Assembly: GCF_000723405.1 (NCBI RefSeq)
Contig: NZ_CCAE010000002.1
Span: forward strand, 62,001 to 126,000
Origin: Hydrogenophaga intermedia
Lineage (GTDB): Bacteria > Pseudomonadota > Gammaproteobacteria > Burkholderiales > Burkholderiaceae_C
DNA: 64,000 bases
Direction: 5' to 3'
Shown here piece by piece: positions 1,513 to 39,991 of the stretch (position 1 is its first letter; every line of letters starts with the position of its first letter). The notes under the pieces are model-generated. The model worked only from the letters and a program-made list of their open reading frames with translations. It searched no databases and had not been told where the DNA came from. A program made the translations under genes and the position numbers.

Positions 1513-2493
1513 ATGTTCGCTTTCATTCTCCGACGCCTCGCGCAGGCGGTGATCGTCATGGTCAGCGTGGCGCTGATCGCATTCATGCTGTTCCAGTACG
1601 TCGGGGATCCGGTGGTGTTCCTGCTGGGGCAGGACGCGACGCCGGAACAGGTGCGGGCCTTGCGCGCCGACCTGGGGCTCGACCAGCCGTTCTTCGTGCA
1701 GTTCTGGCACTTCCTCGTCAACGCCGCGCAGGGTGAGTTCGGGTTGAGCTTGCGCCAGGGTGCCAAGGTGTCGCGCCTGATCGCCGAGCGCTTCCCGGCG
1801 ACGCTTGAGTTGTCCATGGTGGCTGCCGTGCTGGCGCTGCTGGTGGGCATTCCCATGGGTGTGTATGCGGCCCTCAAGCGCGGCACCTTTCTCAGCCAGG
1901 TGTTCATGACAGTCTCGCTGCTGGGTGTGTCGTTGCCCACCTTCCTCATCGGCATCCTGCTGATCCTGGTGTTCGCAGTGCACCTGGGCTGGTTCCCCAG
2001 CTTCGGCCGTGGCGACGTGGTCAACCTGGGCTGGTGGAGCACGGGCCTGCTCACCACGAGGGGGTGGATCCACATCACGCTGCCGGCGGTCACACTGGCC
2101 ATCTTCCAGCTCACGCTCATCATGCGGCTGGTGCGCGCTGAGATGCTGGAGGTGCTGCGCACGGACTACATCAAGTTCGCTCGTGCGCGTGGTCTCACCA
2201 ACCGCGCCGTTCACTTCGGCCACGCGCTGAAGAACACGCTGGTGCCGGTGATGACCATCACCGGCCTGCAGCTTGGTGGCCTGATCGCCTTCGCCATCAT
2301 CACCGAGACGGTGTTCCAATGGCCGGGCATGGGTCTGCTGTTCATCCAGGCCGTGACCTTCGCCGACATCCCGGTGATGGCCGCCTACCTGTGTCTGATC
2401 GCGCTGATTTTCGTGGTGATCAACCTCGTCGTCGATCTGCTGTACTTTGCGGTCGATCCGCGCCTGCGCGTGGAAAAGTCCGGAGGACATTGA
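1513..2493 (+). CDS. ABC transporter permease, DppB/OppB type
   Basis: Inner-membrane permease of the peptide-type importer, 326 residues, the usual length. It begins MFAFILRRLAQAVIVM with a first transmembrane helix and about six helices in all. The cytoplasmic EAA-like coupling loop is near residues 215-240 (YIKFARARGLTNRAV), followed by the typical TETVFQWPGMG stretch. Its partner is the DppC-type permease at 5562, unusually separated from it by an amidohydrolase and a second binding protein. The stop is followed 2 bases later by the ATG of a mini-ORF repeat. Confidence 0.93.
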   Translation: MFAFILRRLAQAVIVMVSVALIAFMLFQYVGDPVVFLLGQDATPEQVRALRADLGLDQPFFVQFWHFLVNAAQGEFGLSLRQGAKVSRLIAERFPATLELSMVAAVLALLVGIPMGVYAALKRGTFLSQVFMTVSLLGVSLPTFLIGILLILVFAVHLGWFPSFGRGDVVNLGWWSTGLLTTRGWIHITLPAVTLAIFQLTLIMRLVRAEMLEVLRTDYIKFARARGLTNRAVHFGHALKNTLVPVMTITGLQLGGLIAFAIITETVFQWPGMGLLFIQAVTFADIPVMAAYLCLIALIFVVINLVVDLLYFAVDPRLRVEKSGGH

Positions 2494-2495
2494 TC

Positions 2496-2581
2496 ATGAA
2501 CCCCCACGCTCATCACTTCGTGTATTCGCTGCCCCCCGAGGGGGTGCAGGCCTCCCTTGGGGCGGCCCGGCGGGAGGCCTC
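2496..2581 (+). repeat. Mini-ORF/hairpin intergenic element, copy 1
   Basis: About 86 bases filling the whole gap between the permease and the M20 gene. It opens with ATGAACCCCCACGCT, carries a small CCCCC/GGGGG hairpin at 2533-2544, then a perfect 8-bp stem GGCCTCCC (2549-2556) with GGGAGGCC (2572-2579) around the 15-nt loop TTGGGGCGGCCCGGC. The stem ends exactly 2 nt (TC) before the ATG of the next gene and buries that gene's Shine-Dalgarno GGGAGG. Copy 2 at 24921 has the same spacing, a nearly identical loop and a different but fully paired stem. Confidence 0.75.
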
Positions 2582-2585
2582 ATGA
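2496..2585 (+). CDS. Putative 29-codon leader peptide inside repeat copy 1
   Basis: Short reading frame MNPHAHHFVYSLPPEG... ending ...LGAARREAS. A good Shine-Dalgarno, GGAGG at 2481-2485, lies 10 bases before its ATG. Its TGA overlaps the ATG of the M20 gene (ATGA at 2582-2585), the arrangement expected for translational coupling. A second frame with the same pattern (MNPHA...SLPP...LGAA.RR..S, stop on the next ATG) occurs at 24921. There is no recognisable domain; the peptide may matter only as a means of moving a ribosome through the downstream hairpin. Expression is unproven. Confidence 0.4.
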   Translation: MNPHAHHFVYSLPPEGVQASLGAARREAS

Positions 2586-3871
2586 ACAAGTCCCGCTACA
2601 AGGTGCATGGCCCGGCGTTTGCGCACATCGCGGCCTTCCACCCCGAACTCACCGCGCTGCGACGCGACCTGCACGCCCATCCCGAACTGGGCTTCGAAGA
2701 GATATACACCAGCAAGCGCGTGGCGGAGTCGCTCAAGGTGTGCGGCGTGGACGAGATCCACACCGGCATCGGAAAGACCGGCGTGGTGGCCATCATCCGC
2801 GGCCGCCAGAATGGCAGCGGCCGCATGATCGGGCTGCGCGCCGACATGGACGCGCTGCCCATGACCGAGCACAACGACTTCGCCTGGAAGTCGGCCAAGC
2901 CCGGGATGATGCACGGCTGTGGCCACGATGGGCACACCGCCATGCTGGTGGGCGCCGCGCGTTACCTGGCCGAAACGCGCCAATTCGATGGCACGGCCGT
3001 GCTCATCTTTCAGCCCGGCGAAGAAGGCTTCGCCGGCGCCAAGGCCATGATCGAAGACGGCCTGTTCGAGCGCTTTCCGGTGCAATCGGTCTTTGCGATG
3101 CACAACTGGCCGCAGATGCGCCCAGGCATGGTGGGCGTGAACCCGGGGCCGATGATGGCTTCGGCTGATCGCATCACCATCGAGATCACCGGCAAGGGCG
3201 GCCACGGCGCGCACCCTTACGCTGCGGTCGATCCGGTGCTGGTGGCGGCCCACATCATCACAGCCGTGCAGAGCATCGTCTCGCGCAACGTGCGCGCAAT
3301 CGACAGCGCCGTGATCAGCCTGTGTGCCATGCAGGCCGGCGACCCGGGCGCTTTCAGCGTGATTCCCGGCACGGCGCGGCTGATCGGCACGGTGCGCACC
3401 TTCAACCCGGAGGTCCAGGCCATGGTCGAGAAGCGCCTGCACGAGGTCTGCTCCGGCGTGGCGCTGGGGTTGGGGGCCTCGGCGCACCTGAACTACGAAC
3501 GCATCTACCCCGCCACCATCAATACGCGCGACGAAGCCCGCTTTGCGATGGAAGTGGCGCAAAAGCTCGTGGGCCACGAGCACGTGGACCGCAACATGGA
3601 CCCGAGCATGGGCGCGGAGGATTTCTCCTTCATGCTGCAGGTCAAGCCCGGCGCCTACCTGCGCCTGGGCCAGGGTGCCGAGAACGGGCAGGGAGCCTGT
3701 TTCCTGCACAACAGCCGCTACGACTTCAACGACGAGGTGCTGCCACTGGGCGCCGCCTTGCACGCCAGCCTGATCGAGCAGGGCATGCCGCTGGGCGAGC
3801 CTCACGCGGCGCTGCGCCAGTCCACCCCTCAGTCCACCCCTTCCCCCACCCCCGCAAGGAGCGAAGCATGA
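2582..3871 (+). CDS. M20 family amidohydrolase (hippurate/N-acyl-amino-acid hydrolase type)
   Basis: Metal-dependent amidase that removes an acyl group from an amino acid or small peptide; 429 residues, a typical length. The metal-binding signature MHGCGHDGHTAML is near residue 110, QPGEEGFAGA supplies the catalytic glutamates, and MHNWP follows. A dimerisation domain sits in the middle and a closing GAEDFSFML motif near the C-terminus. The start at 2582 is chosen because the mini-ORF stop overlaps it and a GGGAGG lies just upstream. Its stop overlaps the ATG of the next binding protein (ATGA at 3868). No signal peptide, so it probably acts in the cytoplasm on a product imported by this transporter. 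The true substrate is not deducible. Confidence 0.9.
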   Translation: MNKSRYKVHGPAFAHIAAFHPELTALRRDLHAHPELGFEEIYTSKRVAESLKVCGVDEIHTGIGKTGVVAIIRGRQNGSGRMIGLRADMDALPMTEHNDFAWKSAKPGMMHGCGHDGHTAMLVGAARYLAETRQFDGTAVLIFQPGEEGFAGAKAMIEDGLFERFPVQSVFAMHNWPQMRPGMVGVNPGPMMASADRITIEITGKGGHGAHPYAAVDPVLVAAHIITAVQSIVSRNVRAIDSAVISLCAMQAGDPGAFSVIPGTARLIGTVRTFNPEVQAMVEKRLHEVCSGVALGLGASAHLNYERIYPATINTRDEARFAMEVAQKLVGHEHVDRNMDPSMGAEDFSFMLQVKPGAYLRLGQGAENGQGACFLHNSRYDFNDEVLPLGAALHASLIEQGMPLGEPHAALRQSTPQSTPSPTPARSEA

Positions 3872-5442: not shown

Positions 5443-5445
5443 GGC

Positions 5446-5530
5446 TATCCCCCGCGCCGCCTGCGGCGTCTCCCCCCCAAGGGGCGCCAGCAGCGGCCCG
5501 GCGGAGCCGGTTCCGCGCTGGCCCTGGGTC
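5446..5530 (+). repeat. Three-hairpin intergenic repeat, copy R1
   Basis: Sits between the binding protein and the DppC-type permease. Hairpin 1 is CGCCGC (5455-5460) with GCGGCG (5463-5468). Hairpin 2 is a C-run and G-run around CAAG. Hairpin 3 runs 5487-5521: CCAGC/GCTGG, GCGG/CCGC, then CCGGC-GGA-GCCGG, with fixed bulges C and TT. Copy R2 at 18622 has the same plan with compensatory base changes, so the structure is conserved rather than the stem sequence. Confidence 0.7.
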
Positions 5531-5561
5531 TGCGCATCGCTTCACTCTCCAGGACGTTTTC

Positions 5562-24920: not shown

Positions 24921-25003
24921 ATGAACCCACACGCTGAGCCGCTGCGCGGGTCGCTGCCCCCGAGGGAGCTGATCCGGCTTGGGGCCGCCCTGCGCCGGAT
25001 CTC
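24921..25003 (+). repeat. Mini-ORF/hairpin intergenic element, copy 2
   Basis: Fills the msrP-msrQ gap. It opens with ATGAACCCACACGCT and has TCGCTGCCCC exactly 30 bases after its ATG, as in copy 1. A perfect 8-bp stem GATCCGGC (24971-24978) with GCCGGATC (24994-25001) encloses the 15-nt loop TTGGGGCCGCCCTGC. The stem again ends 2 nt (TC) before the next gene's ATG. Confidence 0.75.
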
Positions 25004-25007
25004 ATGA
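24921..25007 (+). CDS. Putative 28-codon leader peptide inside repeat copy 2
   Basis: Reads MNPHAEPLRGSLPPREL... and ends ...LGAALRRIS, with its TGA on the msrQ ATG (ATGA at 25004-25007). It shares MNPHA, SLPP and LGAA with the leader at 2496 while the intervening residues differ. No strong Shine-Dalgarno is visible before it. It may couple msrQ translation to ribosomes arriving from upstream. Not demonstrated. Confidence 0.38.
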   Translation: MNPHAEPLRGSLPPRELIRLGAALRRIS

Positions 25008-39283: not shown

Positions 39284-39991
39284 ATGGCCCGACTGCCGCG
39301 CCTGACCGTCGCCGGTTACCCGCACCACATCATCCAGCGCGGCAACAACCGCCAGGCCATCGTTCGCGACGACGAAGACCGTGAGGCCCTGCTGGAGCTG
39401 ATCACGACCCGGGCGCGCCAACACGGCGTGGCGCTGCACGCCTGGGTGCTGATGGACAACCACTTCCACCTGCTGGCCACGCCCGAGACGGCCGAGGGCG
39501 TGCCGCGGTGGATGCAGGACGTTGGCCGCAGCTACGTGCGCCGCTTCAACGACCGCCACCAGCGCTCCGGCACCCTGTGGGAAGGCCGCTACAAGTCCAC
39601 CTTGATCCAGACCGAGCGCTACTTCCTGGCCTGTATGGCCTACATCGAGCTCAATCCGGTGCGCGCCGGCATGGTGGCCGAGCCGCGCCAGTACCCCTGG
39701 TCGAGCCACCTGCACCACATTGGTCAGCGCGTGGACCGCTACCTCAGCGCCCACCCCGTGTACTGGGCCCTGGGCAACACCCCTTTCGCCCGCGAAGCCG
39801 CCTACGCTGAGTGGGTGCGCTCGGGCCTCAGCGCGCAGCAGCAGAAGGCCATCACGGACGCCGCGCTGCATGGCTGGGCCCTGGGCGACGAGGGTTTTGC
39901 GGGGGAACTGCAGAAGCAGACCAGCCGTCGGGTGTCGCGTGCTGCTAAGGGGCGCCCAGCCGCAGTGCCCGTGGACAAAGCCGGTACCTGA
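39284..39991 (+). CDS. REP-associated tyrosine transposase (TnpA_REP family)
   Basis: 235-residue HUH nuclease. The catalytic HFH is at residues 60-62 in VLMDNHFHLLATP, and the likely catalytic tyrosine region is YFLACMAYIELNPVRAGM (113-130). Family blocks RLTVAGYPHHIIQRGNN at the N-terminus and SGTLWEGRYKSTLI are intact, so it may be active. ATG 39284 is the first start inside the element. Related domesticated transposases are associated with spread of short palindromic repeats in other genomes; whether this one acts on any repeat here is unknown. Confidence 0.92.
   Translation: MARLPRLTVAGYPHHIIQRGNNRQAIVRDDEDREALLELITTRARQHGVALHAWVLMDNHFHLLATPETAEGVPRWMQDVGRSYVRRFNDRHQRSGTLWEGRYKSTLIQTERYFLACMAYIELNPVRAGMVAEPRQYPWSSHLHHIGQRVDRYLSAHPVYWALGNTPFAREAAYAEWVRSGLSAQQQKAITDAALHGWALGDEGFAGELQKQTSRRVSRAAKGRPAAVPVDKAGT

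Follow-up and report, generated by a model that had tools for sequence, protein, structure and literature searches.

In a 64,000-nucleotide stretch of Hydrogenophaga intermedia DNA, hereafter the window, the gap between an ABC-type permease gene and an M20-type peptidase gene is filled by a short open frame that runs across one copy of a dispersed repeat. Taking our comparisons together, we consider it very probable that this element is a hairpin-rich (REP/MITE-like) repeat of the Burkholderiaceae, once or still mobile, and that inside a coupled gene pair it survives mostly where it can be read through, the downstream gene then starting by termination-reinitiation.

The insert upstream of the M20 gene

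The features of this junction are the following, with their basis in brackets.

1513..2493, forward strand: ABC-type permease gene (open reading frame list and sequence; named by reading)
2482..2486, forward strand: GGAGG Shine-Dalgarno before the mini-ORF ATG, 9 nt spacing (sequence)
2496..2585, forward strand: bridge mini-ORF of 29 codons, MNPHAHHFVYSLPPEGVQASLGAARREAS (sequence; phase tests)
2501..2579, forward strand: dispersed-repeat copy 1, 79 nt, family consensus 77 nt (BLAST, covariance model)
2549..2556, forward strand: 5' arm of the terminal stem, GGCCTCCC (covariation)
2572..2579, forward strand: 3' arm of the terminal stem, GGGAGGCC, with the presumed M20 Shine-Dalgarno (sequence, Shine-Dalgarno enrichment)
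2582..3871, forward strand: M20-type peptidase/amidohydrolase gene, putative family name, its start overlapping the mini-ORF stop (open reading frame list, homologs)

The permease TGA lies at 2491-2493 and the mini-ORF ATG begins 2 nt further on, at 2496. At the other end, the mini-ORF TGA (2583-2585) shares bases with the M20 ATG (2582) in an ATGA. The two arms, GGCCTCCC and GGGAGGCC, make a perfect 8-bp stem with a 15-nt loop that ends 2 nt short of the M20 ATG; the GGGAGG in the 3' arm stands 4 nt from that ATG, and folding predicts this Shine-Dalgarno to be mostly paired. An earlier note, made from the letters of the window, had described both the 29-codon mini-ORF with its Shine-Dalgarno and its TGA on the M20 ATG, and the stem with GGGAGG inside, and direct reading bears out each of these coordinates.

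Comparison with empty sites shows an insertion, and presence or absence against a native start is seen at the M20 junction as well as at two further junctions discussed below (ptsHI and lol). Among 80 loci of M20 relatives, the element lies between permease and M20 gene in H. borbori (L042) only, where the terminal stem carries a C-G to U-A exchange. An empty site in another relative (L043) is a TGA-C-ATG with no insert and reads GGAGGACACTGACATG. Because such empty sites place the M20 start at this position, the GGAGG at 2482-2486 can be read as the former M20 ribosome-binding site; together with the native start, it most likely belonged originally to the M20 gene and became that of the mini-ORF. 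At one locus among the 80 (L067) and one from a separate set (L135), tandem copies stop about 26-29 nt short of the M20 start and lack the coupled arrangement.

Folding energy was unremarkable: with its flanks (131 nt) the element has z = -1.39, with 18 of 200 shuffles equally stable, and the minimum free energy structure uses a competing helix in place of the 8-bp stem, which does form when the element is folded by itself (-41.2 kcal/mol). The thermodynamic argument by itself was dropped on this z-score, and the non-chance support for the copy 1 structure is comparative, not energetic. Aligned copies show that the hairpins of the family covary. For the whole structure in the copies of the same genome, 57 cells show changes on both sides of a pair against 10.3 +/- 2.8 in shuffles (0/500), and in the terminal stem, whose sequence varies among copies, seven of the eight pairs show such changes. 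For 97 copies from six other genomes, in an alignment that is itself fitted to the covariance model, the count of such cells is 190 against 50 in shuffles (0/500). The number of pairs with a both-side change, one of five measures, is not above shuffles in the same 97 copies (8 against 7.3, 186/500).

A dispersed repeat of the Burkholderiaceae

A 97-base query gave 37 BLAST matches in the same genome, itself counted, and a covariance model built from 41 copies found 40 there at E <= 0.01. The consensus of 77 nt has a small 5' hairpin, a CCCCC/GGGGG hairpin and the terminal 8-bp stem. The copies in this genome are 76-80 nt long in 38 of 40 cases (the remaining two are 65 and 72 nt), and their G+C runs from 0.72 to 0.86, being at most 0.78 in eight, 0.79 in three and at least 0.80 in 29. 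All 24 genomes of the genus carry the repeat, with 3 to 118 matches each (no more than 119 candidates were scored in any genome), and the nearest relatives by name are Hydrogenophaga. At E <= 1e-4 it occurs in 160 of 200 genomes of the family, covering 118 of 141 genera. None of 16 genomes sampled from other families of the order has it; a plasmid of Azoarcus, which belongs to another order, also has copies. Some copies are in tandem (L028 and L029), with arrays in G001 and G007 and at the ptsHI junction in G018 and G020.

Rfam gave no match at gathering score in the window, and positions 2400-2700 gave three sub-threshold matches, the best at E = 0.21. A known RNA family was rejected on these grounds, and a reverse-strand HDV-like score (E 1.5) was taken as chance.

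The window holds a second copy, opening with the same ATG.

24921..25007, forward strand: bridge mini-ORF 2, 28 codons, MNPHAEPLRGSLPPRELIRLGAALRRIS (TGA 25005-25007 overlaps ATG 25004)
24926..25001, forward strand: repeat copy 2, 76 nt, its stem without a Shine-Dalgarno (covariance-model match)

Its stem differs in sequence (GATCCGGC/GCCGGATC), and its end reads TCATGA. A further GC-rich palindromic stretch (CCCCCCAAGGGG ... GGAGCCGGTTCCGC) lies in the window at 5443-5561, from a substrate-binding protein gene to the next permease. Ends of the form AGCCGGTTCC were found also 3' of some repeat matches in the wider family (L348, L350).

The repeat is probably the same as the Beta-proteobacterial repeat element, BRE (Hot et al., 2011; PMC3110155), to which we liken it by description, not by sequence. 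As far as the accessible text of that paper goes, BRE is 75-91 bp long, lies mostly between genes or reaches a few bases into ORFs, is sometimes inside genes, and forms tandem arrays with no or few nucleotides between units in Comamonadaceae, Bordetella and Azoarcus (PMC3110155). The repeat described here is thus alike in length, intergenic setting, overlap of a few nucleotides with ORFs, tandem habit and hosts. However, 29 of the 40 copies in the H. intermedia genome have at least 80% G+C against 63.7-78.9% for BRE in Bordetella, and the portion of the BRE description available mentions no function, ORF or coupling (PMC3110155). A literature search by BRE's full name returned only PMC3110155.

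Reading frames across inserts

Where copies sit was analyzed in two sets. The first comprised 137 matches from the genome of the window and six more genomes, which were picked for having few enough copies for full listing. For the second, the pattern ATGRRCCCCCACGCT was run over 299 genomes of the family and matched in 65 of them, from 46 of 141 genera; places in the H. intermedia genome were assigned to the first sample, and 7 of 106 loci without a model match (L295, L297, L308, L309, L317, L322, L324) were dropped. Neighbors and starts came from a purpose-written codon-usage caller rather than from curated annotation, with L402 and L407 excepted.

In the first sample, 75 of 137 copies have an adjacent co-oriented stop upstream, which in 72 of the 75 lies 0-11 nt before the repeat. 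By context, 49 of the 137 copies are flanked by co-directional genes and 18 by convergent ones, the other 70 lying elsewhere (antisense, inside genes or unassigned). Of the 49 co-directional copies, 33 have an ATG in the 13 nt that precede the repeat, against 4 of the 18 convergent ones (p = 0.0018). From this ATG, 25 of the 33 bridge to the next gene, with a stop -5 to +4 nt of its start, six fuse with it and two do neither; the stop minus start distance is +1 (ATGA-type) in 18 of the 25 bridges. The 16 co-directional copies without ATG give three bridges and two fusions from GTG or TTG, two frames that do neither and nine loci with no start. In the family-wide set, the frame test covered 98 of 114 matches, the 16 that lack an ATG at -5 being set aside, and 70 of the 98 were co-directional: 49 bridge (-8 to +5), eight fuse, five come near, four do otherwise and four have no start found. 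These 49 bridges, 29 of them with the exact +1 overlap, span 41 genomes and 31 genera.

An open frame is no proof by itself here, because GC-rich DNA has few stops (five of the six frames of the repeat consensus are open). Since frame openness is uninformative, the evidence for bridging is the phase together with the stop/start overlap. All 25 bridgeable loci of the first sample bridge in their actual phase where 8.7 were expected (0/200,000 randomizations), and family-wide 49 of 56 bridgeable loci use the bridging phase where 20.3 were expected (0/100,000); both randomizations take loci as independent, and homologous loci (ptsHI, lol, maf) enter repeatedly. Read across these junctions, the phase of inserts is conserved, and mini-ORFs are not broken as often as chance would have it.

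The earlier note had seen in this element a portable translational-coupling cassette and had proposed a covariance-model search for where its copies end. The coupling half of that idea holds well: mini-ORF and stop/start overlap at co-directional junctions are far from chance in two samples and at two orthologous junctions. The cassette half fares less well, as gaps between co-directional genes hold only 49 of the 137 copies and are not the main setting of the repeat; the 88 others lie elsewhere. The note had named homologous elements found mostly away from gene starts as a ground for refutation, and these counts bear that ground out in part.

Seven named plasmid loci were read as well. Six of them bridge (Variovorax sp. 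PBL-E5, B. arboris, P. caribensis, B. cenocepacia, B. stagnalis and Azoarcus sp. KH32C), and the locus on a plasmid of Paraburkholderia sp. 22B1P (L408) is non-bridging; L403-L406 and L408 were read without gene tables, and three more records (H1, H2, H5) gave no useful junction. In L402 (1581) and L407 (1279), both in records with gene tables, the annotated downstream start is the overlap start.

Translations show copies fused in frame at L012, L020, L040, L221, L227 and L244. The downstream proteins presumably are a prenyl transferase (L012), an AMP-ligase (L020) and Maf (L227, L244), by resemblance, and their N-termini would be repeat-derived.

Two operon junctions were followed across the genus, between genes that we take, from motifs known to us, to encode HPr and PtsI (ptsH-ptsI) and LolC/E and LolD. 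For ptsH-ptsI, 30 loci were read among 38 genomes with a ptsH match: 13 have a -4 overlap, three have short gaps (1, 3 and 15 nt) and 14 carry 61-301 nt extra. By eye, the long inserts are eight sense repeats (two of these being tandem arrays), three inverted repeats (G338, G008, G337) and three other sequences (G004, G023, G002). In all 14, a start codon lies within 5 nt of the old junction, the TGA of the frame falls one base into the ptsI start, and the gap is 1 mod 3. Some of these inserts were probably inherited jointly, leaving fewer than 14 independent events. The tandem arrays consist of two copies and a piece in G018 and of four copies, two incomplete, in G020; a single open frame crosses each of the arrays, over gaps of 226 and 301 nt (L422, L425). 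The inserts without recognizable repeat (L428, L430, L436), 61-97 nt long, are likewise bridged, with the stop on the ptsI start.

At lolC/E-lolD, 30 loci were read among 35 genomes with a lolD match, four of the 30 being not callable: 12 have a -8 overlap, four have short gaps, six carry the repeat and four another repeat. All six repeat inserts (84, 87, 84, 90, 90 and 90 nt) bridge at +1 from the native ATG. The four inserts of the other repeat are all in frame with LolD and keep the native start, as an N-terminal extension; this other repeat (L444, L449, L451, L455) has palindromes of the GAGCCTGTCGA/GACAGGCTC type.

Because inverted copies, tandem arrays and unrelated inserts also bridge, what the operon demands seems to be the bridge and not the peptide. 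For the cassette proposed earlier, this means that coupling is imposed by the operon rather than brought by the element.

An enzyme that duplicates the stop/start junction, with a fixed insert length setting the phase and no selection, could produce the same layout. Flanks give this idea some substance: shared words are longer than in shuffled pairs for co-directional copies (3.84 vs 3.50, 0/300) and for copies in other contexts (3.56 vs 3.25, 0/300), and H. borbori has the stop/start junction on both sides of its copy (TGATCATG on the left, TGACATG on the right). However, convergent copies show no flank similarity (3.11 vs 3.26), and the ptsH-ptsI inserts vary in length (61-301 nt), orientation, copy number and sequence while all 14 gaps stay 1 mod 3. 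We therefore regard this explanation as very unlikely, and a purely mechanical phase was rejected on the ptsH-ptsI series. Target-site duplication as a family-wide rule is unproven, the flank similarity holding for co-directional and other copies and not for convergent ones.

Selection for a small protein is the least probable of the explanations that we weighed. The peptides are alike across several genera, but different loci use different frames of the repeat (SLPPEGA..., CPPRGR..., AAPRGG...), leaving the peptide unconserved. A selected peptide was rejected on two grounds: of the seven substitutions that separate the window copy from that of H. borbori, six alter the encoded residue, and four peptides tested gave no Pfam match.

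The frame might instead be kept so that ribosomes cover a C-rich insert and guard it against Rho, with exact coupling secondary. The repeat is indeed C-rich, untranslated RNA invites Rho according to the available part of a recent review (PMC12548453), and in-frame fusions would satisfy such a guard too. Nevertheless, the stops fall on the start itself (+1 in 18 of 25, 29 of 49 and, at ptsHI, 14 of 14), which is tighter than polarity needs, and we consider a polarity guard somewhat unlikely as the explanation of the bridges. Avoidance of Rho polarity may still add selective pressure to the survival of bridged inserts, the reading that we prefer.

The terminal stem, mechanism and known systems

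Counted row by row in the family-wide set, GGAG or GAGG is present in the 3' arm of 24 of the 54 copies that bridge and of 11 of the 60 remaining ones (p = 0.004), a moderate enrichment, and is absent from the arm in the other 30 of the 54. In the first sample, scored with a slightly different motif set, a 3'-arm Shine-Dalgarno occurs in 7 of 49 co-directional, 0 of 18 convergent and 1 of 70 other copies (7/49 vs 1/88, p = 0.003). At 20 bridging loci with such an arm, the distance from Shine-Dalgarno to start is 5-7 nt in 16, and the mean probability of the Shine-Dalgarno being unpaired is 0.10. The masking of the ribosome-binding site by the stem, which the earlier note had put forward, hence applies to a subset only, and copy 2 has no Shine-Dalgarno in its stem.

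These same values, with a like-built bridge in six of seven named records (Burkholderia, Paraburkholderia, Variovorax, Azoarcus), are what a purpose-built regulatory cassette would lead one to expect, that is, a repeat spread through useful coupled control by mini-ORF and masking stem. We consider this unlikely: of the 137 copies, 88 sit away from starts, the arm lacks a Shine-Dalgarno in over half of the bridging ones in the family-wide set (30/54), inverted copies and inserts without recognizable repeat keep the bridge, and the peptide is unconserved.

The preferred reading, survival of readable inserts in coupled pairs, can be put as a series of steps. The repeat would often settle 0-11 nt 3' of a stop codon; where it lands in a translationally coupled pair, it would persist mostly when readable across, in a mini-ORF frame that closes on another stop/start overlap, either ATGA or a TGA lying a few nucleotides ahead of ATG. 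The downstream gene would then start by termination-reinitiation at this second overlap. In a subset that includes copy 1, the 3' stem arm may have become, or may already have been, the Shine-Dalgarno of the downstream start; a ribosome passing along the mini-ORF would open the stem and uncover this Shine-Dalgarno. Translation of the mini-ORF, reinitiation, unmasking of the Shine-Dalgarno and selection as the cause are all inferred. In reporter work, gaps of about 20 nt nearly abolish reinitiation, going by the accessible text of the study (PMC10666635); because of this, a 77-bp insert should cripple the second gene unless bridged, and such a loss of coupling would explain why inserts must be bridged. 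Bridging is made easy because the repeat is stop-poor and GC-rich. The phase data fit the survival of bridged inserts.

A possible extension, which we offer tentatively, is that the repeat itself evolved to be operon-friendly: five of its six frames are open, and one class has a Shine-Dalgarno in a covarying stem before a duplicated start, so that insertion would restore the coupling of both neighbors and the downstream gene would depend on translation of the mini-gene. If this were true, the insertions would be natural experiments revealing operons that depend on coupling.

Of special interest for comparison are the mycobacterial interspersed repetitive units (MIRUs), reportedly described by Supply and colleagues in 1997. 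In the part of a review that was accessible, they appear as apparently mobile repeats at start codons whose internal ORF is coupled at -4, an arrangement seen as limiting the cost of insertion (PMC12548453). The repeat studied here similarly has an internal ORF with its stop on the next start (25 of 33 and 49 of 70 bridge, with +1 in 18 of 25 and 29 of 49). MIRUs, however, belong to another phylum and are likened by description, not sequence; here, moreover, most copies lie elsewhere, some bridging copies carry a covarying stem with a Shine-Dalgarno, and inverted copies and other inserts bridge as well. Termination-reinitiation at -4 overlaps has the identical ATGA geometry, but the available account concerns a native arrangement with no inserted repeat (PMC10666635). 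The RNA-unfolding model of coupling, in which upstream translation opens a hairpin-held ribosome-binding site, shares the masked site as far as it is set out in the text at hand (PMC12548453), whereas here the stem is part of the repeat and masks in some copies only.

The view of the earlier note, that this is not a described regulatory family, is thus doubtful, with BRE similar in size, tandem habit and range and MIRU a described parallel, both judged from the accessible parts of those sources. In a literature search mostly outside subscription journals, we found no account of the repeat as a coupling element. The kind of phenomenon is already known through MIRU; as far as that search reaches, the bridging of operon genes by a Burkholderiaceae repeat, the stem-borne Shine-Dalgarno and the series of junctions appear to be new.

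Reporters are the usual means of showing translational coupling, and dozens of natural insertions amount to tests in place, making it directly testable which operons require coupling in nature. With them, the view drawn from MIRUs, that mobile repeats persist in operons through being translated, gains a second lineage that is apparently unrelated. They give a likely fate and cost for a very common Burkholderiaceae repeat for which we found no reported function in the literature. They also call for caution: some ORFs of 25-40 amino acids and some N-terminal extensions in such genomes derive from the repeat.

REP/REPIN and ERIC elements are, like the repeat described here, hairpin-rich and dispersed between genes; to our knowledge, no comparable bridging by ORFs exists for either. 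REP/REPIN elements with RAYT are GTAG-type palindromes moved by a Y1 transposase. The stretch at 39284-39991 of the window carries the sole Y1_Tnp (REP-associated transposase-like) domain found in the genome, at 39320-39649.
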